Source: Saccharopolyspora galaxeae (GTDB lineage: Bacteria; Actinomycetota; Actinomycetes; Mycobacteriales; Pseudonocardiaceae). From it: a DNA stretch of 64,000 nucleotides. Below the pieces are notes generated by a model. That model ran no database searches, had not been told where the DNA came from, and was given only the letters and a program-made list of their open reading frames with translations. The DNA is taken from contig NZ_JADDUE010000011.1 of the NCBI RefSeq assembly GCF_016526145.1, positions 124,001-188,000 of the forward strand, given 5' to 3'. Position 1 is the first letter of the stretch. Every line of letters begins with the position of its first letter. The translations under genes and the position numbers were made by a program. Positions 5,866-20,982 of this stretch are shown piece by piece.

Positions 5866-7122
5866 TCAGCCGGAAACCGCCGCCGAGACCGCCTCCGACC
5901 ACAGTCGCACCGCCTCGTCGACCTGTTCGGAGTTGACGATCAGCGGCGGGATCATCCGCACGACGTTGCCGCGCGGGCCGCAGGTCAGCAACAGCAGCCC
6001 GCGCTCGGCCGCGGCGGCGTGCGCCCGCGTGGCGGTCGCGGTGTCCGGGGCCCCGTCGGAGGTGGTGAACTCGTTGCCGACCATGAGCCCGCGCCCGCGC
6101 ACCTCGCCGATCACCGGGTGCTCGGCGGCGACCTTGCGCAGCCCTTCCTGCAACCGGGCGCCCTGCTCGGCGGCGTTGCCGACGAGGTCGTTCTCGCGCA
6201 CCACGTCGAGGGTGGCGATCGCCGCGGCCGCGGCCACCGCGTTGCCGCCGTAGGTGCCGCCCTGCGAACCCGGCCACGCCTTGCTCATCAGCTCCGCGGA
6301 GGCCGCGATGCCCGACAGCGGGAAGCCGCTGGCCAACCCCTTGGCGGTGATCAGGATGTCGGGTTCGATGGTGGAGTGCTGGTGTCCCCAGAACTTCCCG
6401 GTGCGGCCCACCCCGGTCTGCACCTCGTCGGCGATCAGCAGGATCCCGTGCCGGTCGGCGCGTTCGCGCAGCCCTTCGAGGAATTCCGCGGGCGCCGGGA
6501 TGTAACCGCCTTCGCCGAGCACCGGCTCGATGATGATCGCGGCGGTGTCCTTCGGGGAGGTCACGGTGACCAGCAGCTGGTCCAGCTCGCGCAGCGCGAA
6601 GGCCACCGCCTCCGACTCGGACCAGCCGTGCCGGTAGGTCTCCGGGAACGGGGTGAACGCCACGCCCGGCATCATCGGGCCGATCCCGGCGCGCACCTTC
6701 ACCCCGGAGCTGGTCAGCGAGCCCGCGCCCATGGTGCGGCCGTGGAAGCCGCCTTCGAAGGCGATGATGTTCTGCCGCCCGGTGGCCTGCCGGGCCAGCC
6801 GCACCGAGGCTTCGACGGCCTCGCTGCCGGAGTTGAGGTAGAACATCCGGTCCAGCCCGGCGGGCAGCACCTCGCCGAGCCGCTCGGTCAGCTGGAGTAG
6901 CGGCCGATGCATGACTGTCGTGTACTGGCCGTGGATCAGGGTTCCCACCTGGCGCTGCGCAGCTTCCACCACGCGCGGGTGGCAGTGCCCGGTGCTGGTC
7001 ACCCCGATCCCCGCGGTGAAGTCGAGGTAGCGGCGGTCGTCCTCGTCGTAGAGGTAGACGCCCTCCCCGCGGGCGGCCAGCACGGGTGTCGCCTGCTGCA
7101 ACACCGGCGAGAGCTCAGCCAT
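5866..7122 (-). CDS. gabT: 4-aminobutyrate aminotransferase (class III, PLP)
   Basis: A 418-residue PLP enzyme predicted to transfer the amino group of GABA, or a close omega-amino acid, to 2-oxoglutarate, yielding succinate semialdehyde. Family motifs in order are NSGSEAVEASVRLAR, GGFHGRTMG, the cofactor Asp in LLIADEVQTGVGRTG, the Schiff-base Lys in ILITAKGLASGFPLSG, and the late GGTYGGNAVA. The start ATG 7122 has GGAG 8 bases upstream. An upstream in-frame start would run through the operator at 7169-7182 and is rejected. The gene is divergent from a succinate-semialdehyde dehydrogenase, the expected next step. The shared GntR-type palindrome between them suggests joint repression. The exact omega-amino acid is an inference. 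Confidence 0.88.
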   Translation of the reverse strand: MAELSPVLQQATPVLAARGEGVYLYDEDDRRYLDFTAGIGVTSTGHCHPRVVEAAQRQVGTLIHGQYTTVMHRPLLQLTERLGEVLPAGLDRMFYLNSGSEAVEASVRLARQATGRQNIIAFEGGFHGRTMGAGSLTSSGVKVRAGIGPMMPGVAFTPFPETYRHGWSESEAVAFALRELDQLLVTVTSPKDTAAIIIEPVLGEGGYIPAPAEFLEGLRERADRHGILLIADEVQTGVGRTGKFWGHQHSTIEPDILITAKGLASGFPLSGIAASAELMSKAWPGSQGGTYGGNAVAAAAAIATLDVVRENDLVGNAAEQGARLQEGLRKVAAEHPVIGEVRGRGLMVGNEFTTSDGAPDTATATRAHAAAAERGLLLLTCGPRGNVVRMIPPLIVNSEQVDEAVRLWSEAVSAAVSG

Positions 7123-7168: not shown

Positions 7169-7182
7169 GATTGTTGACAATC
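7169..7182. promoter_or_regulatory. GntR-type operator, site 1 (gabT/gabD)
   Basis: The palindrome GATTGT-TG-ACAATC lies between the divergent gabT and gabD. It contains a TTGACA hexamer that could be the -35 of gabD, so a bound repressor would occlude it. Near-identical copies occur at 11789-11800 and 13284-13299, with the likely repressor gene at 10223-10930. Confidence 0.75.
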
Positions 7183-7249
7183 TAGCTCGACATGCAACCA
7201 TCACGGCTGCGTCCTGTCCACCCGCCGAAATGGAAGGTCCGCTGAAGCG

Positions 7250-8743
7250 ATGAGCACCACCAGCAGCACGCCTGCCAGCACCGAGACCCGAGAGGCCCGC
7301 GTCGTCGAGGCCGCTCCGAAACAGCTGCTCATCGGCGGCAAGTGGCGCGGGGCCAGCGGTGACCGCAGCTACGAGGTCGAAGATCCCTCCACCGGCCGGG
7401 CGCTGTGCTCGGTCGCCGACGCCACCCCCGAGGACGGGCTGGCCGCGCTCGCGGCCGCGCACGACGCCCAGTCCGGCTGGGCCGCCCACCCGCCGCGCGA
7501 ACGCGGCGAGATCCTGCGCCGCGCGTGGGAACTGATCACCGAGCGGCACGAGGACCTCTCGCTGCTGATGACCCTGGAGATGGGCAAGCCGCTGATCGAG
7601 TCCCGCGCCGAGATCACCTACGCCGCGGAGTTCTTCCGCTGGTTCGCCGAAGAGGCCGTGCGCATCGACGGCGACTACGCGGTGGCCCCGAACGGCAAGG
7701 GCCGGTTCCTGGTCACCCGCCAGCCGGTCGGCCCGGCGCTGCTGATCACCCCGTGGAACTTCCCGATGGCGATGGGCACCCGCAAGATCGGCCCGGCGAT
7801 CGCGGCCGGCTGCACCTCGGTGATCAAACCCGCGCACCAGACGCCGCTGTCGATGCTGGCGCTGGCCGACATCCTCAACGAGGCCGGGCTGCCCGAGGGC
7901 GTGCTCAACGTGGTCACCGCCCGCGGCGCCGGCTCGGTGATGGAGCCGATGATCCGCGACGGCCGCGCCCGCAAGCTCTCGTTCACCGGCTCCACCTCGG
8001 TGGGCCGCAAGCTCATCGAGCAGTCCGCCGAGCAGGTGCTGAAGGTGTCCATGGAACTCGGCGGCAACGCCCCGTTCCTGGTGTTCGACGACGCCGACAT
8101 CGACGCGGCGGTCGACGGGGCGATGCTGGCGAAGATGCGCAACATCGGCGAGGCGTGCACCGCGGCCAACCGGTTCTACGTGCACGCCGACGTCGCCGAC
8201 GAGTTCGCCCGCAAGCTCACCGACCGGATGGCCGCGCTGCGGATCGGGCGCGGGGTCACCGACGACGTCGAGGTCGGCCCGCTGATCGACTCCGCCCAGC
8301 TGGACAAGGTCGACGAGCTGGTCAGCGACGCGGTCGGCCGCGGTGCGCAGGTCGAGCTCGGCGCCTCCCGCGGCGACGGCGAGGGCTACTTCTACCAGCC
8401 CACGGTGCTCAAGAACGTGCCGTTGCAGGCGCGGATGACCTCCGAGGAGATCTTCGGCCCGGTCGCGCCGATCAGCACCTTCACCGACGAGCAGACCGCG
8501 CTGCGCGAGGCCAACAACACCGAGTACGGCCTGGTCGCCTACCTCTACACCCGCGACATCCAGCGCGCGCTGCGCGTGTCGGAGCAGCTGGAGACCGGCA
8601 TGGTCGGGCTCAACCAGGGCATGGTCAGCAACCCGGCGGCGCCGTTCGGCGGGGTCAAGGCGTCCGGGCTGGGCCGCGAAGGCGGCAAGGTCGGCATCGA
8701 CGAGTTCCTGGAGACCAAATACATCGCCATCGGCGGTCTGTGA
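7250..8743 (+). CDS. gabD: NAD(P)-dependent succinate-semialdehyde dehydrogenase
   Basis: A 497-residue aldehyde dehydrogenase that should oxidise succinate semialdehyde to succinate. All catalytic elements are intact: the oxyanion Asn in LITPWNFPMAMG, the general base Glu in SMELGGNAPF, the nucleophile Cys in GEACTAANRF, and the cofactor Glu in SEEIFGPVAP. FTGSTSVGRKL and the C-terminal GLGREGG...FLETKYIAIGGL are typical of the GabD/SSADH class. It is divergent from gabT, completing the GABA-to-succinate route. The first 20 residues are a variable extension. Confidence 0.92.
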   Translation: MSTTSSTPASTETREARVVEAAPKQLLIGGKWRGASGDRSYEVEDPSTGRALCSVADATPEDGLAALAAAHDAQSGWAAHPPRERGEILRRAWELITERHEDLSLLMTLEMGKPLIESRAEITYAAEFFRWFAEEAVRIDGDYAVAPNGKGRFLVTRQPVGPALLITPWNFPMAMGTRKIGPAIAAGCTSVIKPAHQTPLSMLALADILNEAGLPEGVLNVVTARGAGSVMEPMIRDGRARKLSFTGSTSVGRKLIEQSAEQVLKVSMELGGNAPFLVFDDADIDAAVDGAMLAKMRNIGEACTAANRFYVHADVADEFARKLTDRMAALRIGRGVTDDVEVGPLIDSAQLDKVDELVSDAVGRGAQVELGASRGDGEGYFYQPTVLKNVPLQARMTSEEIFGPVAPISTFTDEQTALREANNTEYGLVAYLYTRDIQRALRVSEQLETGMVGLNQGMVSNPAAPFGGVKASGLGREGGKVGIDEFLETKYIAIGGL

Positions 8744-8766
8744 CCGCCGCTTTCCGCGCAGAAACC

Positions 8767-8798
8767 GGTGCCCCGCACGTTGCGACGTGCGGGGCACC
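8767..8798 (+). terminator. Terminator after gabD
   Basis: A 14-bp perfect stem (GGTGCCCCGCACGT arm) with a 4-base loop, 24 bases after the stop. It separates gabD from the following dehydrogenase, which therefore needs its own promoter. Confidence 0.85.
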
Positions 8799-8885
8799 GT
8801 CGTGTGGGCCGAACGGCGGTGCGCGCAACCGTCGTTGTCAGCATGTGGAGTCCTGATTGCTCCGAATGGGCGTGCGCGATCAAAA

Positions 8886-8897
8886 TTGACGGGTCAA
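8886..8897. promoter_or_regulatory. Candidate operator TTGAC-GG-GTCAA
   Basis: A perfect 5-2-5 inverted repeat in the 264-base gap upstream of the glycerol-dehydrogenase-like gene. It differs from the GntR palindrome of the neighbouring promoters, so if real it would bind another regulator. Confidence 0.3.
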
Positions 8898-9007
8898 CCG
8901 ATACAGGTGCGCCCGGCCGCGACGGCTCGTCCGCCGCCCGGCGCGCACCCGCCCCGCGATGGACCCCGCGGTCCCGCCCGGGGCGTCCACGCAGGAGGGA
9001 CGATCCG

Positions 9008-10156
9008 ATGACCGAGACACCGGCGGCGCTGCGCACGATGATCTCCCCCGGCCGCTACGTGCAAGGCCGCGGCGCACTGCAATCGCTGGGAGCCAACGTG
9101 GCCAAGCTCGGCAAGCGGCCCGTGGTGCTGGCCGATGACATCGTCCGCGAGCTGACCGAGACCACGATCACCAAGTCCTTCGGCGAGGCCGGGCTGCCGG
9201 TGGTCTTCGAGCGCTTCAACGGTGTGCCCACCGCCGCGGAGAGCCGCCGCGTTGCCGAGGTGCTGCACGAGCAGGGCGCCGACGTGATCGTCGGGGTCGG
9301 CGGCGGCGCACCGATCGACACCGCCAAGGCCGCGGGCGACGACACCGGCCTGCCCACGGTCAGCGTGCCCACGGTCGCCTCCACCGACGCTCCGTGCTCG
9401 GCGCTGTCGGTCGTCTACACCGCCGAGGGCGCATTCGAGGCCTACCGCTTCTACGACCGCAACCCCGCGCTGGTGCTGGTCGACACCCAGCTGGCCGCGA
9501 ACGCCCCAGCGCGGTTCCTCGTCGCAGGCATCGGCGACGCGCTGGCCACCTGGATCGAGGCGCGCGCGGTCGAGCAGTCCAACGCCGCGACGATGGCCGG
9601 TGGGCAGGCCACCGGCGCCGGGCGGGCACTGGCGAAGCTGTCCTGGGACATCTTGTGGGAATCGGCGCTGCCCGCGGTGCACGCGGTGCAGAGCAACCTC
9701 GTCACCCCGGCCGTGGAGGCGGTCGTGGAAGCCAACACGCTGCTGTCCGGGCTCGGGTTCGAATCCGGCGGGCTGGCCGCGGCGCACGCGGTGCACGACG
9801 GGCTCACCGCCGTCGAGCACACCCACGGCCTCGCGCACGGCCAGAAGGTCAACATCGGCTCGATCACCCAGCTGATCCTGGAAGGCCGCCCGACCGCGGA
9901 GATCAACGACTTCGTCGAGTTCACCACCCGGGTGGGCCTGCCGACGACGCTGACCGAGGTCGGCCTGGCGGGTGCGGAGGACTCGGTGCTGCGCACCGTC
10001 GCGGAAGCCGCCACCGACCCGGCCGAGACGATCCACAACCTGCCGTTCCCGGTCACCGTCACCGAGGTCGTGGACGCGCTCAAGGCCGTCGAGGTCACCG
10101 GCCGCGCCGTGCGCGCCGACAAGGGACTGCCCGAGCCGGTCGCGCACCAGCACTGA
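9008..10156 (+). CDS. gldA: Glycerol-dehydrogenase-like iron/zinc alcohol dehydrogenase
   Basis: A 382-residue group III metal-dependent alcohol dehydrogenase. GldA-like enzymes oxidise glycerol or related polyols to the ketone with NAD. The nucleotide-binding GVGGGAPIDTAKA, the metal Asp in GIGDALATWIEAR, and the metal His in SGGLAAAHAVHDG and HTHGLAHGQKV are all visible. The ATG start has AGGAGG at a spacing of 9. It sits between gabD and the GntR gene but has its own promoter region and lacks the ATTGT-N2-ACAAT operator. Membership in the regulon is therefore uncertain, and the true substrate may not be glycerol. Confidence 0.85.
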   Translation: MTETPAALRTMISPGRYVQGRGALQSLGANVAKLGKRPVVLADDIVRELTETTITKSFGEAGLPVVFERFNGVPTAAESRRVAEVLHEQGADVIVGVGGGAPIDTAKAAGDDTGLPTVSVPTVASTDAPCSALSVVYTAEGAFEAYRFYDRNPALVLVDTQLAANAPARFLVAGIGDALATWIEARAVEQSNAATMAGGQATGAGRALAKLSWDILWESALPAVHAVQSNLVTPAVEAVVEANTLLSGLGFESGGLAAAHAVHDGLTAVEHTHGLAHGQKVNIGSITQLILEGRPTAEINDFVEFTTRVGLPTTLTEVGLAGAEDSVLRTVAEAATDPAETIHNLPFPVTVTEVVDALKAVEVTGRAVRADKGLPEPVAHQH

Positions 10157-10163
10157 CCGACCG

Positions 10164-10219
10164 CGCGCGGCCAGCGGTCGCCGACGGGCGGCGACCGCTC
10201 GTCGGGCCCTGGCCGCGCG
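10164..10219. terminator. Nested double hairpin between convergent genes
   Basis: An inner 10-bp stem (AGCGGTCGCC arms at 10173-10182 and 10190-10199) lies inside outer arms CGCGCGGCCAG and CTGGCCGCGCG (10164-10174, 10209-10219). Inner and outer arms overlap slightly, so these are alternative or stacked structures. It lies between the convergent gldA-like and gntR genes and is a likely bidirectional terminator. Confidence 0.65.
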
Positions 10220-10222
10220 GGA

Positions 10223-10930
10223 TCAGTGCGCGGCGTCGGACAGGTGCGGGGTGTAGGCGTTGAGGCGTTCCAGCGCGTCGTTCATGTGCGCCTCCAGCCG
10301 CTGCAGCAGCAGCACCTCGTCCCCGTCCTCGATCGCGTCGACGAGCCCCTTGTGCTCGTCGACCAGGGTCTGGGCGTCGGCGGTGTACTTGTCCTGCAGC
10401 GCGGTCAGGCACATCCGCTTTTCCACCAGCAGCGTCTGCGCCATCCGCTGCAGCCGCGGGCTGCCGGACACGCGCACCAGCGTCTCGTGGAACTCCTGGT
10501 CGGCGTCGCTGAGCTCGATCGCGTCGCCGCGCCCGGCGGCCGAGACGATCCGCGCCTGCGCCGCGGTCAGCTCCGCGACCGCCTCCACCCGGTGCTTGCG
10601 GATGATCCGCTCGCAGGCCGCCCGCTCCACGGCCAGCCGCCCCAGGTAGATGTCGGCCACGTCGTCGGCGTCCAACGTCGTGACGAACAATCCCCGGTGC
10701 GGCTCGCTGTGCAGCAGACCTTCCTGCACCAAGCGCTGCATCGCCTCGCGCAGCGGGCCGCGGCTCACGCCCAGCCGCGAGGACAGCTCCGCTTCGCCCA
10801 TCTGCGTGCCCGGCGGCAGCGAGCCGTACATGATCGCCGAGCGCAGCTGGTCGGCCACGATCGCGGCAGTGGATTTGCGCTGCACCGGCTCTAACTCGCC
10901 GTGCTGGTTCTGCTCGTCGACACCGAGCAC
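10223..10930 (-). CDS. GntR-family regulator, FCD (FadR-like) subgroup
   Basis: A 235-residue repressor. The winged helix-turn-helix at about 20-85 carries LRSAIMYGSLPPGTQMGEAELSSRLGVSRGPLREAMQRL. The helical FCD ligand-binding domain at about 90-225 has the metal-binding Asp and His pattern (D..EFHETLVR, H near DEHKGLVDAI, LEAHMNDALERL). FCD regulators usually sense small carboxylates. It is the distal gene after the racemase-like gene, with a 19-base gap, so it is autoregulated if the palindrome at 11789-11800 is its site. The GTG start has GAGGAG 10 bases upstream. Confidence 0.9.
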   Translation of the reverse strand: MLGVDEQNQHGELEPVQRKSTAAIVADQLRSAIMYGSLPPGTQMGEAELSSRLGVSRGPLREAMQRLVQEGLLHSEPHRGLFVTTLDADDVADIYLGRLAVERAACERIIRKHRVEAVAELTAAQARIVSAAGRGDAIELSDADQEFHETLVRVSGSPRLQRMAQTLLVEKRMCLTALQDKYTADAQTLVDEHKGLVDAIEDGDEVLLLQRLEAHMNDALERLNAYTPHLSDAAH

Positions 10931-10949
10931 CTCACATCATCTCCTCGCA

Positions 10950-11711
10950 TCAGCTCGAAACCGGGCCGGCTCCCCACTGCTGCGCCGTCGTCCCGGACTG
11001 CCGGAACAGGGTGCCCAGGCCCTCGTGTGGTCCCTTGTCCCCGGCCAACCGCAAGACCTCCCACGCGCTGACCTGGTTGGCGGTCAGCACCGGTTTGCCG
11101 ATGCGCTGCTCGAGCTCGTCCAGCCACGCCGCGGTGTGCAGCGCGGTGTCCGGCATCAGCAGCGCCTGCGCCGTCGGGTCGTCGTTGGCCGCGGCGAACT
11201 CCAGCACCTGCTCGCGGCCCAGCGTGCCCACCTCGGCGGCGGTGACGATGCCGCGGCTGGACAGCCGGGTCACCTCGACGCCGCCGTGCGCCAGGAAGTC
11301 GGCGAACCGGTCGGCCACCTCCGACGGGTAGGTCGCCGCGACCGCCACCCTGCCGAGCCCGAGCCGCGCCGCGGCGTGCACGAACGCGAACGAGGTGCTG
11401 GAGGTCGGCAAGCCGGTCACGGCCTGCAGCTTCTCGACCTGGTCGCGCGCACCGTCCCAGCCGAAGACGAAACTGCCGCTGGTGCAGGCCCAGATGACCG
11501 CGTCCACCCCGTGCGCCAGCAGCTCCCGGGCTCCGTCGGCGAGCACCTCGGACGAACCGACGTCCAGCAGCGCGTCCACCCGGTGAGCGTCCTCCCGCAT
11601 CAGCGTGTGCACCAGCGGCAACCGGACCTGGTCACCGAAGATCCGCTCCAGTGCGGGGTAGTCGTCTTCGGCGCTGTATCCGGGGTAGAGAATCCCTGCG
11701 GTGATCGGCAC
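10950..11711 (-). CDS. Asp/Glu racemase-superfamily protein, second catalytic Cys missing
   Basis: A 253-residue member of the maleate isomerase / arylmalonate decarboxylase / Asp-Glu racemase superfamily. These enzymes normally act through a Cys pair, one per lobe. The first Cys is present in WACTSGSFVFG. At the position of the second (FISCTN in its neighbour) it reads LLMPDTALHT, with no Cys. The C-terminal GKPVLTANQVSAWEVLR matches the family. It is paralogous to 11856-12614. The GTG start is supported by AAGGAGG at spacing 9, and an upstream in-frame start would cross the operator. It is followed by gntR in an apparent two-gene unit. Possible roles are isomerase or decarboxylase with altered chemistry, or a binding protein. 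Confidence 0.75.
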   Translation of the reverse strand: MPITAGILYPGYSAEDDYPALERIFGDQVRLPLVHTLMREDAHRVDALLDVGSSEVLADGARELLAHGVDAVIWACTSGSFVFGWDGARDQVEKLQAVTGLPTSSTSFAFVHAAARLGLGRVAVAATYPSEVADRFADFLAHGGVEVTRLSSRGIVTAAEVGTLGREQVLEFAAANDDPTAQALLMPDTALHTAAWLDELEQRIGKPVLTANQVSAWEVLRLAGDKGPHEGLGTLFRQSGTTAQQWGAGPVSS

Positions 11712-11788
11712 CGGCAGCTCCCTCCTTGATTCGTCCGGTGGGGATGGCGAGCACCGTCCCCACCGAAACGGCACCGGACCTGCGGTCG

Positions 11789-11800
11789 ATTGTCGACAAT
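11789..11800. promoter_or_regulatory. GntR-type operator, site 2 (racemase-like gene / gntR)
   Basis: The perfect palindrome ATTGT-CG-ACAAT lies 78 bases upstream of the racemase-like GTG start. It sits in the 144-base gap that splits the minus-strand genes into two transcription units. It is the second copy of the motif seen at 7169 and 13284, and it implies autoregulation of the gntR gene. Confidence 0.7.
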
Positions 11801-11855
11801 GTTACCGCACGGTCCGATGCCGCTCCCAATAGCGGAAATGCTTTCGTAACCGGTT

Positions 11856-12614
11856 TCAGGCCGCGGACTCGTCCAGGGCCTGCACCAGGCGCTGCTGCGG
11901 CGCGACCGCGGGCATCCCGATCGCGTGCAACGCGCCCCACATCGTGACCTGGTTGGCCGTGAGCACCGGCTTGCCCAGTTCCTGCTCCAGCGGCCCGATG
12001 ATGTCGTAGGTCGGCAGGTTCGTGCAGCTGATGAACATCGCATCGGCCTCCGGGCGATCCGCCGAGCGCACGATGTCGACCACCTGGCGGTAGTTGACCT
12101 TCCAGATCTGACCGAGCAACCCCAGGCCCACGCTGGTGACCACTTCGATGTCGTGCTCGCCGAGGAAGCCCACCAGCCGCTCGGTCACGTTCTCCACGTA
12201 CGGCGTGGCGATCGCGATGCGCCGCGTGCCCAGCGCGTGCAGCGCCTGCACCAGCGCACCGGAGGTGGTCACCGCGGCGGGCGCACCGGCCTCGCGCATC
12301 ACCGTGACCAGGTTGCGCTCGCCGGCCGCGCCGTCGACGAAACTGCCCGAAGCGCACGCGTAGGCCACCACCTCCGGCTCCGGTGAGAGCAGGTCGCGGG
12401 TGGCCGAGTGAACCGCGGCCTCGTCGGAGATCAGCGAGGCCATCTCCACCGTCATCGGCACCGGCACGAACGCCGTGCGGGTCAGGTACAACGTGACCTC
12501 GTCCGGCACCCATCGCCACAGCTCGCGGTCCATCGCCAGGTCGAACGGGGCGACCACGCCCACACCGCGCTGCGGCGCCGGACCGGACACCGCCCCGAGG
12601 AAGTCGTCCGGCAT
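11856..12614 (-). CDS. Maleate cis-trans isomerase-like protein (Asp/Glu racemase superfamily)
   Basis: A 252-residue enzyme with both catalytic cysteines of the maleate isomerase / racemase superfamily: AYACASGSFVDG in the first lobe and MFISCTNLPTYDIIG in the second. The family tail GKPVLTANQVTMWGALHAIG follows. Maleate isomerases convert maleate to fumarate through a covalent Cys adduct. Amino-acid racemases and arylmalonate decarboxylases share the fold, so the substrate is not certain. The start is 13 bases after the DUF3830 stop, so the two are co-transcribed. The proximity of an amidase suggests a maleamate- or amide-derived dicarboxylate, which is inference. Confidence 0.8.
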   Translation of the reverse strand: MPDDFLGAVSGPAPQRGVGVVAPFDLAMDRELWRWVPDEVTLYLTRTAFVPVPMTVEMASLISDEAAVHSATRDLLSPEPEVVAYACASGSFVDGAAGERNLVTVMREAGAPAAVTTSGALVQALHALGTRRIAIATPYVENVTERLVGFLGEHDIEVVTSVGLGLLGQIWKVNYRQVVDIVRSADRPEADAMFISCTNLPTYDIIGPLEQELGKPVLTANQVTMWGALHAIGMPAVAPQQRLVQALDESAA

Positions 12615-12627
12615 GCGGCGGCCCGCC

Positions 12628-13122
12628 TCAGCCCGAGTGGCGTTCGTAGCGCAGGCGCTCGCCGACGCTGCCCGAACGCCACACGTCGTTGCACGCCTCC
12701 GCGAACGGCCCCAGGTTCTCCACGATGGCGCCGTAGACGTTGCCCGGCACCCAGCCGACATCGCCGTTGAGCAGCAGGTTGTTGCGGCCGTAGAAGATCG
12801 CCAGGTCGATCACGCCGGGCAGCTCGTCGATGTCCTTCTCCTGCTTGAACTCGCGGTCGAGCATCCCGCTGTCGAAGGAGAAGTACACCAGGTCACCAGG
12901 GATCGGCGTGACCGTCGGGTTCTCCTGGCCCGGCTCCCGCTCGGCGAAGCGCGGGACCATCGTGTAGATCTCGTTGCGCGCGTACTTCGCGTGGTGCACC
13001 GGCCCGGCCTGCGGCAACGCCTGCCACACGGCCTCGCAGGTGCGGGGTGCGTCCTTGTCCAGCAGCTCCGCGACGCAGGACACGCCACGCTTTTCCAGCG
13101 TGATCGACAGGTACCTGGGCAT
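12628..13122 (-). CDS. DUF3830 family protein (cyclophilin-like fold)
   Basis: A 164-residue cytosolic protein of the DUF3830 family. The start MPRYLSITLEKRGVSC, the central AVWQALPQAGPVHHAKYARNEIY and the late GDVGWVPGNVYGAIVENL are characteristic. The family is predicted to have a cyclophilin-like barrel and has no assigned function that I know of. It is found with racemase-type and amidase genes in other genomes. Here it heads the minus-strand unit and is divergent from the D-2-hydroxyacid dehydrogenase and amidase, sharing the operator at 13284-13299. ATG 13122 is used. The longer in-frame start would cross the operator. Confidence 0.8.
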   Translation of the reverse strand: MPRYLSITLEKRGVSCVAELLDKDAPRTCEAVWQALPQAGPVHHAKYARNEIYTMVPRFAEREPGQENPTVTPIPGDLVYFSFDSGMLDREFKQEKDIDELPGVIDLAIFYGRNNLLLNGDVGWVPGNVYGAIVENLGPFAEACNDVWRSGSVGERLRYERHSG

Positions 13123-13283
13123 CGGTGAAATTCCGTTTCGGTGAGGGTGCGAGTGCATGGGTCTCCGCATGTCTCGGCTCGCGCCCACCTGACTCGGCTC
13201 ACCGCCGATGGGGACCACGCCGTGCCCTGCATCGGGCCGGAGACGTGCCACCGCAGCCGGGCGCCGCCCGGCGGGGTACCTGC

Positions 13284-13318
13284 GGATTGTTGACAATCCT
13301 ACGAGTGCTTTCTAGCGT
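13284..13318 (+). promoter_or_regulatory. GntR-type operator site 3 overlapping a -35/-10 promoter
   Basis: The palindrome GGATTGT-TG-ACAATCC (13284-13299) is the longest of the three copies. Embedded in it is TTGACA (13290-13295), followed after 17 bases by TAGCGT (13313-13318). This is a reasonable promoter for the hydroxyacid dehydrogenase-amidase pair that a bound repressor would block. Confidence 0.75.
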
Positions 13319-13392
13319 GTCAATCCCCGGTACCGCACGGCCCGGCCTGCGACGACGCGCCGCCCACTCCCCGCCCACTCCGAAGGCAGCTC

Positions 13393-14400
13393 ATGACCCA
13401 GCACCCGCCGACCGTCGTCGTACTGCACGGGGGCACCCCGCCCCCGGTGATGGACCGGATCGAACAGATCGCCGCGGTCCGCTACGCCACCGAACCCGAA
13501 CTGCCCGCCGCCCTGCCGGGTGCCGATGTGCTGTTCGTGTGGGACTTCCGCTCCGACGCGGTCGCCGAATCCTTCGCCCGCGCCGACGCGCTGCGCTGGG
13601 TGCACGCCGCCAGTGCCGGAGTGGACCGGCTGCTGTTCCCGCAGCTGCTGGAGTCCGGGGTCGCGGTGACCAACTCCCGCGGCGTGTTCGACCAGCCGAT
13701 GGCCGAATACGTGCTGGCCGCCGTGCTGTCGTTCGCCAAAGACCTGCACACCAGCGTCCGGCTGCAAGACCGCAAGCAATGGCGGCACCGCGAAACCGAA
13801 CGCATCGCGGGCAAGCACGCGCTGATCGTGGGCACCGGGCCGATCGGCCGCGCCATCGCCACCCAGCTCTCCGCCGCGGGGCTGCGCGTGTCCGGAGCGG
13901 GCCGCGTGGCCCGCGACGACGACCCCGACTTCGGCACCGTGCAAGCCTCCGCCGACCTCGCCCTCGGCGACGTCGACTACCTGGTGCTGGCCGCGCCGCT
14001 GACCGAGCAGACCCACGGGCTCATCGACGCCGACGCCCTCGCCCGGTGCAAACCCACCGCGCGGCTGATCAACGTCGGCCGCGGCGAACTCGTCGTGCAA
14101 CCCGACCTCGTCGAAGCGCTCGAAGCAGGCCGACTCGGTGGCGCCGCGCTCGACGTGTTCGACACCGAACCGCTGCCGCAGGACTCGCCGCTGTGGGAGA
14201 TGCCGAACGTGCTGGTCTCACCGCACATGTCCGGTGACACCGCCGGCTGGACCGAGGAACTCGTGCAGCTGTTCCGGGAGAACCTGCGCAGCTACGCCGC
14301 AGGTGGCCCGCTGCGCAACGTGGTGGACAAGCAACGCGGTTATGTCAGCGGCCCCGGCGATGCCGGCGGCCAGACCAGCGGAACGGAGCGCGATCGATGA
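13393..14400 (+). CDS. D-2-hydroxyacid dehydrogenase family protein
   Basis: A 335-residue NAD-dependent D-isomer-specific 2-hydroxyacid dehydrogenase that interconverts a D-2-hydroxyacid and a 2-oxoacid. The Rossmann motif is ALIVGTGPIGRAIATQL. The catalytic triad residues are the Arg in INVGRGELV, the Glu in DVFDTEPLP and the His in VSPHMSGDT. The early HAASAGVDRLL is the usual substrate-loop region. An AAGG site precedes the ATG. Its TGA overlaps the amidase ATG (ATGA), so the pair is translationally coupled. The substrate is unknown, and it may act on a product of the amidase or racemase-like enzymes. Confidence 0.88.
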   Translation: MTQHPPTVVVLHGGTPPPVMDRIEQIAAVRYATEPELPAALPGADVLFVWDFRSDAVAESFARADALRWVHAASAGVDRLLFPQLLESGVAVTNSRGVFDQPMAEYVLAAVLSFAKDLHTSVRLQDRKQWRHRETERIAGKHALIVGTGPIGRAIATQLSAAGLRVSGAGRVARDDDPDFGTVQASADLALGDVDYLVLAAPLTEQTHGLIDADALARCKPTARLINVGRGELVVQPDLVEALEAGRLGGAALDVFDTEPLPQDSPLWEMPNVLVSPHMSGDTAGWTEELVQLFRENLRSYAAGGPLRNVVDKQRGYVSGPGDAGGQTSGTERDR

Positions 14401-15833
14401 CCTCGACCCCCGAAGCAGCGGCAGCAGCGACAACCGCCACCCCGGTTTCCGCGGCCGATCTGACCGCCACCGAGCTACTCGCCCGCTTCCACACCGGCGA
14501 GCTGTCCCCCGTCGAAGCGACCGAAGCCACCCTGGCCCGCATCGCCGAAGCCGACCAGGCCGTCAACGCCTTCTGCCTCGTCGACCGCGAGCGCGCGCTG
14601 CAGCAGGCCCGCGCCTCCGAAGCCCGCTGGGCACGCGGCGAACCCGACGGCGCACTCGACGGCGTGCCCACCTCGATCAAGGACATCTTCCTGACCAAGG
14701 ACTGGCCCACGCTGCGCGGCTCCCGCACCGTCGAGCCCGCGCAGAGCTGGACCGTCGACGCGCCCACCGTCGCGCGGCTGCGCGAGCACAACGCGGTGTT
14801 CGTCGGCAAGACCACCACGCCCGAACTGGCCTGGAAAGGCGTCACCGACAACACCTTGAGCGGCATCACCCGCAATCCGTGGAACACCGCGCGCACGCCG
14901 GGAGGTTCCAGCGGCGGCGCGGCCGCGGCGGTCGCGCTGGGCATGGCGCCGCTGGCGATCGGCACCGACGGCGGCGGCTCGGTGCGCATCCCGGCGGCGT
15001 TCTGCGGCATCTTCACGATCAAACCCACCTACGGGCTCATCCCGCACTACCCGGCCAGCCCGTTCGGAACCCTGGCGCACGCCGGGCCGATGACCACCAC
15101 CGTCACCGAGACCGCGCTGATGCTCGACGTGCTGACCGGGCCGGACAGCCGCGACTGGTCCGCGCTGGCGCAGCCGGCCGGGTCGTTCCTCGACGGGCTC
15201 GACGACGGCGTGCGGGGACTGCGGATCGCTTTCAGCCCCGATCTGGGGTTCGCCCACGCCGACCCGGAGGTGGCCGAAGCGGTCGCGCGGGCCGCCGAGG
15301 TGTTCACCGAACTCGGCGCCACCGTCGAACGTGCCGACCCCGGCTTCAGCGACCCGGTCGCCGACTTCCACGTGCTGTGGTTCGCCGGTGCGGCCAAGTC
15401 CGTCGAGCACCTCGACGAGCGGCAGCGGCAGCTGCTCGACCCCGGACTGCGGGAGATCGTCGAACAAGGGCTCACCTACTCCGCCCAGGACTACCTGGAA
15501 GCCACCAACACGCGCATGGCCCTCGGCCAGCGCATGGGCGCCTTCCACGAGACCTACGACCTGCTGCTGACCCCCACGGTCGGAATCCCGCCGTTCGAGG
15601 CCGGGCTGGAGGCACCGGCAGGTTCGGACTCGCCGCGCTGGACCGGGTGGACGCCGTTCACCTACCCGTTCAACATGACCCAGCAACCGGCTTCGAGCGT
15701 GCCGTGCGGGTTCACCTCGCACGGGCTGCCGATCGGGCTGCAGATCGTCGGCCCGCGGCACGGCGACGCCCGCGTGCTGCGCGCGTCGCGGGCGTTCGAG
15801 CAGGCCCGGCCGTGGAGCCGCCCGCGACGCTGA
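14397..15833 (+). CDS. Amidase (amidase-signature family, GatA-like)
   Basis: A 478-residue amide hydrolase with the Ser-cisSer-Lys triad: Lys in VPTSIKDIF, first Ser in TPGGSSGGAAAAV, and nucleophile Ser in IGTDGGGSVRIPAAFCG. The C-terminal half, with MTQQPASSVPCGFTSHGLPIGLQIVGP, is standard. It is not part of a GatCAB operon, so a catabolic amidase is more likely than the transamidosome subunit. The overlap with the preceding dehydrogenase and the GntR operator upstream tie it to the local catabolic regulon. It would release ammonia from an unidentified amide. Confidence 0.9.
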   Translation: MTSTPEAAAAATTATPVSAADLTATELLARFHTGELSPVEATEATLARIAEADQAVNAFCLVDRERALQQARASEARWARGEPDGALDGVPTSIKDIFLTKDWPTLRGSRTVEPAQSWTVDAPTVARLREHNAVFVGKTTTPELAWKGVTDNTLSGITRNPWNTARTPGGSSGGAAAAVALGMAPLAIGTDGGGSVRIPAAFCGIFTIKPTYGLIPHYPASPFGTLAHAGPMTTTVTETALMLDVLTGPDSRDWSALAQPAGSFLDGLDDGVRGLRIAFSPDLGFAHADPEVAEAVARAAEVFTELGATVERADPGFSDPVADFHVLWFAGAAKSVEHLDERQRQLLDPGLREIVEQGLTYSAQDYLEATNTRMALGQRMGAFHETYDLLLTPTVGIPPFEAGLEAPAGSDSPRWTGWTPFTYPFNMTQQPASSVPCGFTSHGLPIGLQIVGPRHGDARVLRASRAFEQARPWSRPRR

Positions 15834-18077: not shown

Positions 18078-19514
18078 TCACTCGTCCACTTGGGACATCA
18101 CGTGCTTGATGCGGGTGTACTCCTCCAGACCGAAACGGCCGAAATCGCGCGCCGACGCGGAATGCTTGAACCCGCTGTGCGGCATCTCGGCGACCAGCGG
18201 CCGGTGCGCGTTGATCCACACCGTGCCCGCCTGCAACGCCTGCGACATCCGCATCGCCCGCGCGTGCTCCCGCGTCCAGACGCTGGCGACCAGCCCGTAG
18301 CGCACTCCGTTGGCCAACGCCACCGCCTCGGCCTCATCGGTGAAGCGCTGCACCGTCAGCAGCGGGCCCAGCACCTCGTGCTGCACCAGCTCGTCCTCCT
18401 GCTGCATCCCGGCCACGACGGTGGCCTCGTGGAAGTAGCCGCGACCGCCCTTGCGCCTGCCGCCTGCGACCACCCGGGCGTGCTCCGGCAACCGCTCGAC
18501 GTGCTCGGCGACCAGGTCCAGCTGTCCGGAACTGTTCAGCGGGCCGAACGCGGCATCGAGGTCCTGCGGCGGCCCCGGGCGCAACGCGGCCGCCTGCTCC
18601 GCGAGCGCGGCCACCAGCTCGTCGTGCACACCAGGCCCGGCCAGCACCCGGCTCGCAGCGGTGCAGCTCTGCCCCGCGTCGCCGAACGCGGCCCGCGCAA
18701 TGCCCCGCGCCGCGCGCTCGACATCGGCATCGTCGAACACCACCGCCGGGGCCTTGCCGCCCAGCTGCAGGTGCGCGCGCTTGAGATCGGCGGCCGCGGA
18801 GGCCGCGACCTCCATGCCGGAGCGGACCGTGCCGGTGATCGAGAACATCCCCGGCGCCTCGTGGGCCACCATCGCCCGGCCGCTGTCGCGGTCGCCGCAG
18901 ATCAGGTTCAACACGCCGGGCGGCAGCACCTCCCCGGCAATCCCGGCCAGCAGCGACGCGCTGACCGGCGTGGTCTCGGCGGGCTTGAGCACCACCGTGT
19001 TACCCGCAGCAAGCGCGGGAGCGATCCGCGCCACCGCCAGCAGCAACGGGTGCGTCCACGACGTGACCTGCGCGCACACCCCGATCGGCTCGCGCCTGGC
19101 GAACGAGGTGTGCCCGGGCTCGTACTCCCCGGCCGCACCGGCCTCCTGAACCCGCGCGGCCGCCGCGTAGAACCGCAGCAGGTCGATCGCCTGCGGCAAC
19201 TCCTGCTCGCGGACCACCGCCCACGGTTTGCCGGTGTTGCGGCACTCGGCCACCACCAGTTCCTCGGACCGCTCCTCGAGGGCCTCCGCGATCCGCAGCA
19301 ACATCCGCTGCCGCTGCCCGGGCGTGGTCTGCGTCCAGCTCCGCGCGGCCGCGCCAGCGGTGCGCATCACCTCGTCGACGTCGGTCCAGCGGGTCAACGG
19401 GGAAGTGCCGTACTCCTCCCCCGAGCTCGGATCGACCAGCGGCAACGTCGCACCCGAAACCGTGCCGACGCGCTCCCCGCCGACGAAGTTCTGCAGTTCC
19501 AGCGTCGTGGTCAC
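18078..19514 (-). CDS. Aldehyde dehydrogenase homologue with substituted catalytic residues
   Basis: A 478-residue member of the NAD-dependent aldehyde dehydrogenase superfamily, closest in feel to gamma-aminobutyraldehyde or betaine-aldehyde dehydrogenases. The nucleophile Cys is kept (GDAGQSCTAASRV). The oxyanion Asn of the PWNYP motif reads TSWTHP (Thr). The general base Glu of the ELGGK motif reads LQLGGKAP (CAG, Gln). VLKPAETTPVSA and the C-terminal YTRIKHVM are normal. The frame is intact and the GTG start has GGGAGG, so it is expressed rather than decayed. It may be a non-oxidising homologue such as an esterase, a binding protein or a structural partner, or an enzyme using a different base. 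Confidence 0.85.
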   Translation of the reverse strand: MTTTLELQNFVGGERVGTVSGATLPLVDPSSGEEYGTSPLTRWTDVDEVMRTAGAAARSWTQTTPGQRQRMLLRIAEALEERSEELVVAECRNTGKPWAVVREQELPQAIDLLRFYAAAARVQEAGAAGEYEPGHTSFARREPIGVCAQVTSWTHPLLLAVARIAPALAAGNTVVLKPAETTPVSASLLAGIAGEVLPPGVLNLICGDRDSGRAMVAHEAPGMFSITGTVRSGMEVAASAAADLKRAHLQLGGKAPAVVFDDADVERAARGIARAAFGDAGQSCTAASRVLAGPGVHDELVAALAEQAAALRPGPPQDLDAAFGPLNSSGQLDLVAEHVERLPEHARVVAGGRRKGGRGYFHEATVVAGMQQEDELVQHEVLGPLLTVQRFTDEAEAVALANGVRYGLVASVWTREHARAMRMSQALQAGTVWINAHRPLVAEMPHSGFKHSASARDFGRFGLEEYTRIKHVMSQVDE

Positions 19515-19704
19515 GAAACCTCCCCCTGGGCGACGATGCCGGCCGATCCAGCGACCCTATCCGGCACCGGCGGCCCCAGGGGTGTCAGTGCCCGCCTCGG
19601 GACCTACGAACGGCTCTGGTGCCGGCTTTGCAAGCGGTGTCAGCCGCTTCCGCCGCAACCCGGCGAGCGGCCGCCTACGCAGAACGAGCTCAGAGACAGC
19701 GCGT

Positions 19705-20982
19705 TCAACGCCCGGAGATCGCGCCGAACCGCCCGCGGTACACCCACTGCCCGGCAGCGCCCAACAGCAACAACACCAGCACCGGCACGAACGCCCAGCG
19801 GTACGCCGTCGCAGCAGGCGATCCGACCGCCTCCAGCACCCAGCCGACCACCAGCTGGGTCAGCACCGCGGCCAGGAAACCGCCCATGTTCACCACGCCG
19901 GAGGCAGCGCCCGAACGATGCGCGGCGTTGGCCGATCCCGCGCCGTCGAAGGCGAGCATCGCCCCACCACCGCAGAAGCCCATCACGGCCAGCACGCACA
20001 CCAACACCGGCAGCGGCAGCGCACCGGGCCACCCGATCACCAGCGCCCAGGCGACTGCCACCAACAGCGACACCGCCAGCGTGTACCGCTCACGGCGCTG
20101 ATCACGACCGGCCACCCACTGCCCTGCCACCAGCGAGCCGACGATGAACCCGACCGCACACAGCAACAGCAGACGTCCGGCCGCACCGCCGGAAAAGCCC
20201 TGCGCCGAGGTCAGCCACGGCGCACCCCACAACGTGGTCACCGTCAAGAACTGGCCCATGAGCACGAAGTGCGCGAAGAACGAGTTCCGCGTGCCGCGCT
20301 GGGCCACGACCGCGCGCAACGTGCCTGCGATCCGCTCGTGCCTGGCGGCGTCCTCCTCGACCAGGCCACGCGGCCGATCCCGGATAACCGCGACCGCCAC
20401 CACCGCCAGCACCGCGGTCAAACCCGCAGCACCGAGGAACGTCGTCAGCCAACCCAGCCCGTGCAACGCCGAAGTCAGCGGGACTGTGGAGACCACCTGG
20501 CCGAGCCCGCCGATCAACCCGGTCAGCGCCGCGATCCGCCCGTAGCGGTTGGCCGGGAACCACTGCGCGGCCAACCGCAGCACGTTGGTGAACATGAACG
20601 CGTCGCCGATGCCGATGAGCACCCGGCCGGCGATCCCGCCGACGATCGAGCCGCTGATCGCGAAGACGGCGGACCCGACCGCGAGCGCGACCACCCCGCC
20701 GGTGATCACTCGACGCGGCCCGAGACGGTCGGCAAGCAGACCCGACGGCACCTGCAGCACCAGGTACACCCCGAGCTGCAGCGCGGTGAACAGTGCCAGC
20801 ACCGCAGGACCCGCGGAGAAGCGCACCAGCGCGTCCGGTGCGGCCACCCCCAGGCTCGCCCGGTGGAACAACGCCACGAAGTAGCACGCAGCGCCCACGC
20901 CCCACACCAGCCATGCGCCACGCGGCGCCGTGGCTGGTGCGGCTGAGCGCTCGGTTCGGTCTTCGACCACCTCGGCCGTCAC
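19705..20982 (-). CDS. MFS transporter
   Basis: A 425-residue major facilitator with about 12 membrane helices in two six-helix halves, and a short acidic N-terminal tail. The helix 2-3 loop has the MFS signature GLLADRLGPRRVITGG, and the pore-facing FALGIGDAFMF-like segment (VLIGIGDAFMFTNVLRLAAQWFP) resembles organic-anion or hexuronate transporter types. The substrate is not predictable. The GTG start has GGAGG 10 bases upstream. It is divergent from a GntR/FCD regulator with an imperfect palindrome between them, so regulator-controlled uptake or export is likely. Confidence 0.88.
   Translation of the reverse strand: MTAEVVEDRTERSAAPATAPRGAWLVWGVGAACYFVALFHRASLGVAAPDALVRFSAGPAVLALFTALQLGVYLVLQVPSGLLADRLGPRRVITGGVVALAVGSAVFAISGSIVGGIAGRVLIGIGDAFMFTNVLRLAAQWFPANRYGRIAALTGLIGGLGQVVSTVPLTSALHGLGWLTTFLGAAGLTAVLAVVAVAVIRDRPRGLVEEDAARHERIAGTLRAVVAQRGTRNSFFAHFVLMGQFLTVTTLWGAPWLTSAQGFSGGAAGRLLLLCAVGFIVGSLVAGQWVAGRDQRRERYTLAVSLLVAVAWALVIGWPGALPLPVLVCVLAVMGFCGGGAMLAFDGAGSANAAHRSGAASGVVNMGGFLAAVLTQLVVGWVLEAVGSPAATAYRWAFVPVLVLLLLGAAGQWVYRGRFGAISGR

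Follow-up and report, generated by a model that had tools for sequence, protein, structure and literature searches.

In a 64-kb stretch of the genome of the soil bacterium Saccharopolyspora galaxeae (hereafter the window), a gene for an FCD-type GntR regulator (10223-10930) lies inside a block of metabolic genes, and three copies of the palindrome ATTGT-N2-ACAAT are found in promoter gaps of the same block. We consider all three promoters to be under the control of this GntR, with a probability of roughly nine in ten; this reading, proposed in a first-pass annotation of the window, is strongly supported by phylogenetic footprinting of the sequence. The same annotation described the regulon as self-contained and its enzymes as sharing one substrate. 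Neither description holds as it stood: a remote glutamate dehydrogenase-like gene carries a conserved exact site, and the genes are better described as forming one pathway, for which the genomic evidence favours ectoine/5-hydroxyectoine over gamma-aminobutyrate (GABA).

The palindromes and the GntR that accompanies them

The 12-bp core, ATTGTNNACAAT, occurs as exact copies at 7170-7181, 11789-11800 and 13286-13297. The palindrome grows through the outer bases to 14 bp at the first site (7169-7182) and to 16 bp at the third (13284-13299), in agreement with the first-pass annotation. No further copy was found in the window with one mismatch allowed, and 100 shuffles of the window gave, at the same tolerance, a mean of 0.08 matches and a maximum of 1. 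A genome-wide count, which the annotation had put forward as a check, gave five exact core sites in the 6.4-Mb genome and 0 for a reversed control pattern. Three of the five are those in the window, one is upstream of the glutamate dehydrogenase-like gene, and one is beside a PrpF-family gene. The shuffles, the genome count and the conservation of the sites with the GntR orthologue in other families of the class practically rule out chance matches as the origin of the three palindromes.

The comparisons drew on samples of 150 genomes of the organism's own family, which served for the site densities, and 394 genomes of the class. Orthologues of the regulator were assigned in 93 of the 150 family genomes (at least 53% identity, the next listed match being at 41%), while in the class sample every genome with a match at E 1e-40 or better, at identities down to 38%, was scored GntR-positive. 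Genes in fetched loci were located by tblastn matches or a simple open reading frame caller, so that some starts are miscalled, and the set of loci includes three duplicate pairs. The density of the exact motif is 0.61 per Mb in the 93 GntR-positive family genomes and 0.17 per Mb in the 57 GntR-negative ones (reversed control, 0.03-0.04); genomes free of sites number 0/93 and 22/57, respectively (Mann-Whitney P ~2e-20, kinship ignored). Where the GntR of a fetched locus is 45% identical or more, at least one exact copy of ATTGTYRACAAT is present in 104 of 105 cases, and the single siteless locus (L104) is a 4.5-kb contig. By contrast, the site was found in 2/10 loci with a weaker or no GntR match and in 0/200 shuffled family loci.

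The sites of relatives lie at the same promoters, namely those of the dehydrogenase/DUF3830 (or RacB) genes, often RacA, and the aminotransferase/aldehyde dehydrogenase pair. In four fetched loci (L121-L124) the aminotransferase gene is elsewhere in the genome, and an exact site stands immediately upstream of it. In genus g39 the locus has lost all of the cluster except the genes for GntR and the aldehyde dehydrogenase, and the site is retained upstream of GntR. It could be argued that another regulator, for example a paralogous FCD-type GntR, binds the palindromes and that the local GntR has other targets, given that 35 of the 57 GntR-negative family genomes hold at least one motif and that one such pair of sites is near a different FCD-type GntR gene (L135). 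We regard this as very improbable, since site density tracks this orthologue and the sites accompany it across families, even in g39.

Related palindromes were also seen elsewhere. Copies of ATTGTCGACAAT lie beside other long open frames (clusters c30, c76, c37 and c139) in eight loci of g39 and g14 (L125-L132, at 3501, 2865 or 2611), far from the GntR locus. Palindromes with a GG or CC centre, ATTGTGGACAAT/ATTGTCCACAAT, recur whether or not a genome has this GntR (e.g., G119, G110, G068) and probably belong to another regulator.

The regulator itself, a protein of 235 amino acids, is an ordinary FCD-group GntR by its domains and operator. Both the GntR domain (PF00392, 62.7 bits) and the FCD domain (PF07729, 74.2 bits) score over cut-off, as the first-pass annotation had recognised, and these are its only domains. 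In an alignment of 89 sequences, conservation reaches 99% or more for Asp144, His148, His193 and His215, which belong to the FCD part. Residues of this kind in FCD proteins bind a metal together with an acid ligand, which agrees with the titles of papers on DgoR and CitO. The best NCBIfam model, phnR_burk, reaches 115 bits, far under its cut-off of 271.5; thus no named regulator fits. The closest named relative among the matches listed is from Saccharopolyspora sp. NFXS83 (94%).

The site ATTGT-YR-ACAAT, conserved with the orthologue, conforms to the operator consensus of the FadR subfamily, NyGT-Nx-ACNy, as given in PMC4494728. Some groups described there have a 2-nt gap between GT and AC, and the GntR, HpxS, HypR, MdcY, PrpR and UxuR operators have the two bases of separation seen here. 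FadR/FCD regulators with local regulons likewise have GntR and FCD domains, and their operators too are situated between divergent genes close to that of the regulator; the gene set controlled here differs. A further likeness is to EnuR/EutR, which according to PMC8739950 is also a repressor, with operators overlapping a sigma-70 promoter, as predicted for the present regulator. The EnuR half-sites, ATTGT/ACAAT, are identical to those in the window. However, EnuR is described in that source as a MocR-type protein with pyridoxal phosphate (PLP) and a 6-bp operator spacer, whereas the present regulator is FCD-type with a spacer of 2 bp. Because no aminotransferase-like PLP domain was found in the 235 residues, and because the spacer is 2 bp, this GntR is not EnuR. 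Searches of open PubMed Central (PMC) articles found no paper on this regulon; when GntR, FCD and the motif were searched for, the motif was in none of the ten matches listed, and of the ten listed for the motif letters none deals with this regulon by title.

Overlap of operators with predicted promoters, and a probable remote target

The third operator overlaps two predicted promoters, opposite in direction and interlocked with each other (see table below). Among 87 related sites that adjoin the dehydrogenase gene, 78 have TTGACA in the direction of the gene, and in 76 of these TANNNT follows after 16-19 bp; a shifted control window gave 0 with TANNNT. A promoter of opposite direction, defined as TTGACA (one mismatch allowed) followed by TANNNT after 16-19 bp, is recognised in 61 of the 87, with its -10 box overlapping the edge of the operator; the control position gave 0. 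Upstream of the remote glutamate dehydrogenase-like gene the same arrangement of operator and -35 box recurs in 14/14 loci scored, out of 21 that bear the site. The first-pass annotation had pointed out TTGACA hexamers embedded in two palindromes. Both are present, at 7170 and 13286, but the role of a -35 box is supported only for the latter. At the aminotransferase/aldehyde dehydrogenase gap, TANNNT stands at the right distance in 0/32 related sites (1 in the shifted control window); the TTGACA at 7169 was rejected as a -35 box, and the absence of a promoter at the expected place counts against the mechanism proposed below.

As the dehydrogenase -35 box lies within operator 3, which also covers the edge of the -10 box of the opposite promoter, repression by occlusion is likely at 13284-13299. 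The motif, its overlap with promoters, conservation, linkage and co-occurrence are displayed directly by the sequence; we infer binding, repression, ligand and substrate. In the mechanism we propose, the GntR repressor would bind GATTGTYRACAATC. One dimer at 13284-13299 would block both the dehydrogenase-amidase promoter and the DUF3830-racB promoter, binding at 11789 would silence racA-gntR (autoregulation), and binding at 7169 the aminotransferase/aldehyde dehydrogenase pair; the remote site would serve to silence the glutamate dehydrogenase-like gene. Release of the protein from DNA would be brought about by a small intermediate, an acid or an amino acid, that probably binds at the conserved FCD Asp/His site. 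Activation by the local GntR at one or more of its sites would accord with the lack of a recognised operator-overlapping promoter at 7169 and 11789. It is nevertheless improbable, for the operator holds the -35 box at 13284 and at the remote gene, which fits repression. The interlocked pair under a single operator offers a clean case in which to study how one site may repress two opposite promoters.

The glutamate dehydrogenase-like gene, which scores 175 bits with its best model against a cut-off of 620, is on a different contig, with its site at C30:436521. An exact ATTGTTGACAAT is found 230-322 bp before the aligned start in 21 of the gene's 30 nearest family homologues, and therefore the regulon is not self-contained. 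Of the nine siteless homologues, two are g38 loci and the other seven have identities of 67-73%. The two Georgenia loci (L102, L104) each contain a relative of this gene (63-64%) along with GntR, and in L102 the two genes are direct neighbours.

The fifth site of the genome, ATTGTTCACAAT (C4:72018; L036:9019-9030), lies between a PrpF-family gene and a flavin-reductase-like gene, near two Amidohydro_2 genes and one for an RraA-like protein, in what looks like a pathway for a ring-cleavage product. Its candidacy as a second remote member was not upheld, because the three PrpF-type sites inspected in other species of the genus (L157, L158 and L159, at 3501) have a TT centre, ATTGTTAACAAT, and because a GntR-negative genome has its pair of sites near a different FCD-type GntR (L135).

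Genes of the block and the proposed pathway

Domain searches recovered the racemase-like, DUF3830, D-2-hydroxyacid dehydrogenase and amidase genes that the first-pass annotation had named. The gabT and gabD labels were dropped, as, among the models listed, the equivalog cut-offs for GABA aminotransferase and succinate-semialdehyde dehydrogenase (SSADH) are not reached. The gene racA is directly upstream of gntR (gap of 19 bases), and the two probably form one transcript. RacB resembles maleate isomerases and arylmalonate decarboxylase. The 3kop structure entry near DUF3830 gives no function, and a search of open PMC literature found no paper on DUF3830. Among plasmid records, DUF3830 had 4 matches, all below 31% identity, and RacB had 584. 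The GldA-like gene was dropped as a member of the regulon: it is probably a passenger, because no core site is nearby and because it is found in only two of the 111 related loci (L039, L079). An aminobutyraldehyde-dehydrogenase-like gene and a major facilitator superfamily transporter gene (18078-20982) occur near the cluster in many Saccharopolyspora loci, with no operator in the window.

Table 1. Operators, predicted promoters and genes of the block (positions in the window)
Feature	Position	Strand	Remarks
Operator 1, GATTGTTGACAATC	7169..7182		divergent aminotransferase/aldehyde dehydrogenase gap; conserved in relatives
Operator 2, ATTGTCGACAAT	11789..11800		upstream of racA-gntR
Operator 3, GGATTGTTGACAATCC	13284..13299		DUF3830/dehydrogenase gap
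Predicted dehydrogenase-amidase promoter	13290..13318	+	TTGACA 13290-13295, 17 bp, TAGCGT 13313-13318; arrangement at 76/87 related sites
Predicted opposite DUF3830-racB promoter	13296..13323	-	TTGACA 13323-13318, 16 bp, TAGGAT 13301-13296; at 61/87 related sites
Class-III aminotransferase (first labelled gabT)	5866..7122	-	Aminotran_3; GABA-aminotransferase models 309-386 bits, cut-offs 507-747
SSADH-like aldehyde dehydrogenase (first labelled gabD)	7250..8743	+	TIGR01780 567 bits, cut-off 646; PRK11241 557 bits, cut-off 828
GldA-like dehydrogenase, probable passenger	9008..10156	+	PRK09423 over cut-off; in 2/111 related loci
FCD-type GntR, proposed repressor	10223..10930	-	GntR and FCD domains
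RacA, Amdase/EutA-like	10950..11711	-	Amdase PF17645; EutA model 110 bits, cut-off 318
RacB, second Amdase/EutA-like protein	11856..12614	-	Amdase PF17645; EutA model 113 bits, cut-off 318
DUF3830 protein	12628..13122	-	PF12903, 206 bits; close to solved structure 3kop
D-2-hydroxyacid dehydrogenase	13393..14400	+	PF02826, PF00389
Amidase-signature enzyme	14397..15833	+	PF01425; PRK06169 770 bits, cut-off 506

These genes probably serve one nitrogen-releasing pathway, and we favour, with some reserve, turnover of ectoine and/or 5-hydroxyectoine as its function. We infer each enzymatic step. Ring opening and deacetylation would fall to members of a group made up of the amidase, DUF3830 and the two racemase-fold proteins; the aminotransferase would convert diaminobutyrate to aspartate semialdehyde and the aldehyde dehydrogenase the latter to aspartate, while glutamate dehydrogenase would restore 2-oxoglutarate.

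EctA, an enzyme in the biosynthesis of the salt protectant ectoine, and this GntR tend to occur together. Matches to EctA over cut-off are present in 91/93 GntR-positive and 15/57 GntR-negative family genomes; in the class sample, EctA is found in 36/42 and 53/352, respectively. The association holds in family f2 (10/10 vs 12/25) and in two genera of the own family that are mixed for GntR (8/9 vs 0/3); Fisher tests were used for the class, f2 and mixed-genus tables. DUF3830 follows GntR in the same manner (86/93 vs 0/57 family genomes).

Linkage points in the same direction. In 6/111 loci, all of one clade, ectA-ectB-ectC-ectD are directly upstream of DUF3830 and in the same direction (Mycolicibacter L106, L109, L110 and L112; f2 genomes L186 and L189). 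One protein of each kind was tested and scored over cut-off; L109 has a gap of 26 bases. Three genomes of g44 have a lone ectC next after the glutamate dehydrogenase-like gene that bears the site (L118:5007-5408, L119:5007-5420, L120:1599-1982), and full ectABCD is also found elsewhere in both genomes checked (L200, L201). In Mycolicibacter sp. MYC340 (L109:3-2000) the dehydrogenase-racB-racA stretch is present twice, flanking ectABCD, with one exact site per copy. The S. galaxeae genome carries ectABCD (C11) and, at a separate place (C15:14835-15656), a further gene of the ectoine hydroxylase kind that scores above the cut-off of TIGR02408.

Several observations weigh against an ectoine pathway. 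The co-occurrence counts ignore shared ancestry, and the linkages to ect genes come from two lineages. G239 has the full cluster and no EctA match, G117 has GntR and neither ectA over cut-off nor ectD, and many ectA-bearing genomes of family f21 are without a GntR match at E 1e-40 or better. Every enzyme of the cluster stays under the cut-offs of those models for known ectoine degradation that were tested, and no core site is near the ectABCD genes of S. galaxeae itself. In G122, which is GntR-positive and lacks EctA, ectD is at the very start of a contig, so that ectA may be lost to assembly. All five g39 genomes are without ectD (at E 1e-60) and without DUF3830, a joint absence that hints at 5-hydroxyectoine. 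Against this hint, g39 is a single lineage, both g36 genomes have ectD and no DUF3830, and G037, a 730-contig assembly, has DUF3830 and no ectD match.

A possible, less favoured account is that the regulon is real and run by GntR, while the compound broken down is some other nitrogen-containing acid or amide (e.g., one similar to GABA, beta-alanine or maleamate) and the association with ectoine reflects ancestry or chance. The resemblance of the aminotransferase and aldehyde dehydrogenase to GABA aminotransferase and SSADH speaks for such a substrate, as do the similarity of RacB to maleate isomerases and arylmalonate decarboxylase, the full cluster without EctA in G239, and the restriction of the linkages to two lineages. 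However, the GABA aminotransferase and SSADH scores stay below their equivalog cut-offs, EctA co-occurrence holds within f2 and the two mixed genera, and ectABCD adjoins DUF3830. Ectoine/5-hydroxyectoine turnover appears the better reading.

If so, the route would depart from known ectoine catabolism. The proteobacterial eut/doe clusters described in PMC8739950 share with this one EutA-like, aminotransferase and aldehyde dehydrogenase genes. Canonical clusters also encode EutD/DoeA and EutE/DoeB, whereas here EutD (TIGR02993) is over cut-off in 0/150 family genomes, with matches at E 1e-60 or better in 3/150, S. galaxeae not among them, and EutE (TIGR02994) has no match at E 0.001 in the S. 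galaxeae genome. Neither RacA nor RacB reaches the EutA cut-off. For Bacillota and Actinomycetota, a 2026 survey (PMC13188858) reports tentative clusters for the catabolism of ectoine that were found through EutD and EutB homologues; these are likewise proposed from genomic context alone and belong in part to Actinomycetota. As the present cluster is without EutD, an EutD-based search would miss it. We find the evidence evenly balanced on whether many ectoine-making Actinomycetota have an undescribed route for ectoine/5-hydroxyectoine without EutD/DoeA and EutE/DoeB, one that would use an amidase, DUF3830, two Amdase/EutA-like proteins and a D-2-hydroxyacid dehydrogenase under an FCD-type GntR with EnuR-like half-sites and a shorter spacer.

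Across several actinobacterial families, the analysis gives this transcription factor and its operator, together with some nine target genes, an identity that can be tested. If the pathway reading is true, ectoine producers in these families would own a breakdown route that escapes searches based on EutD, and DUF3830, whose structure has been solved (3kop), would gain a role.

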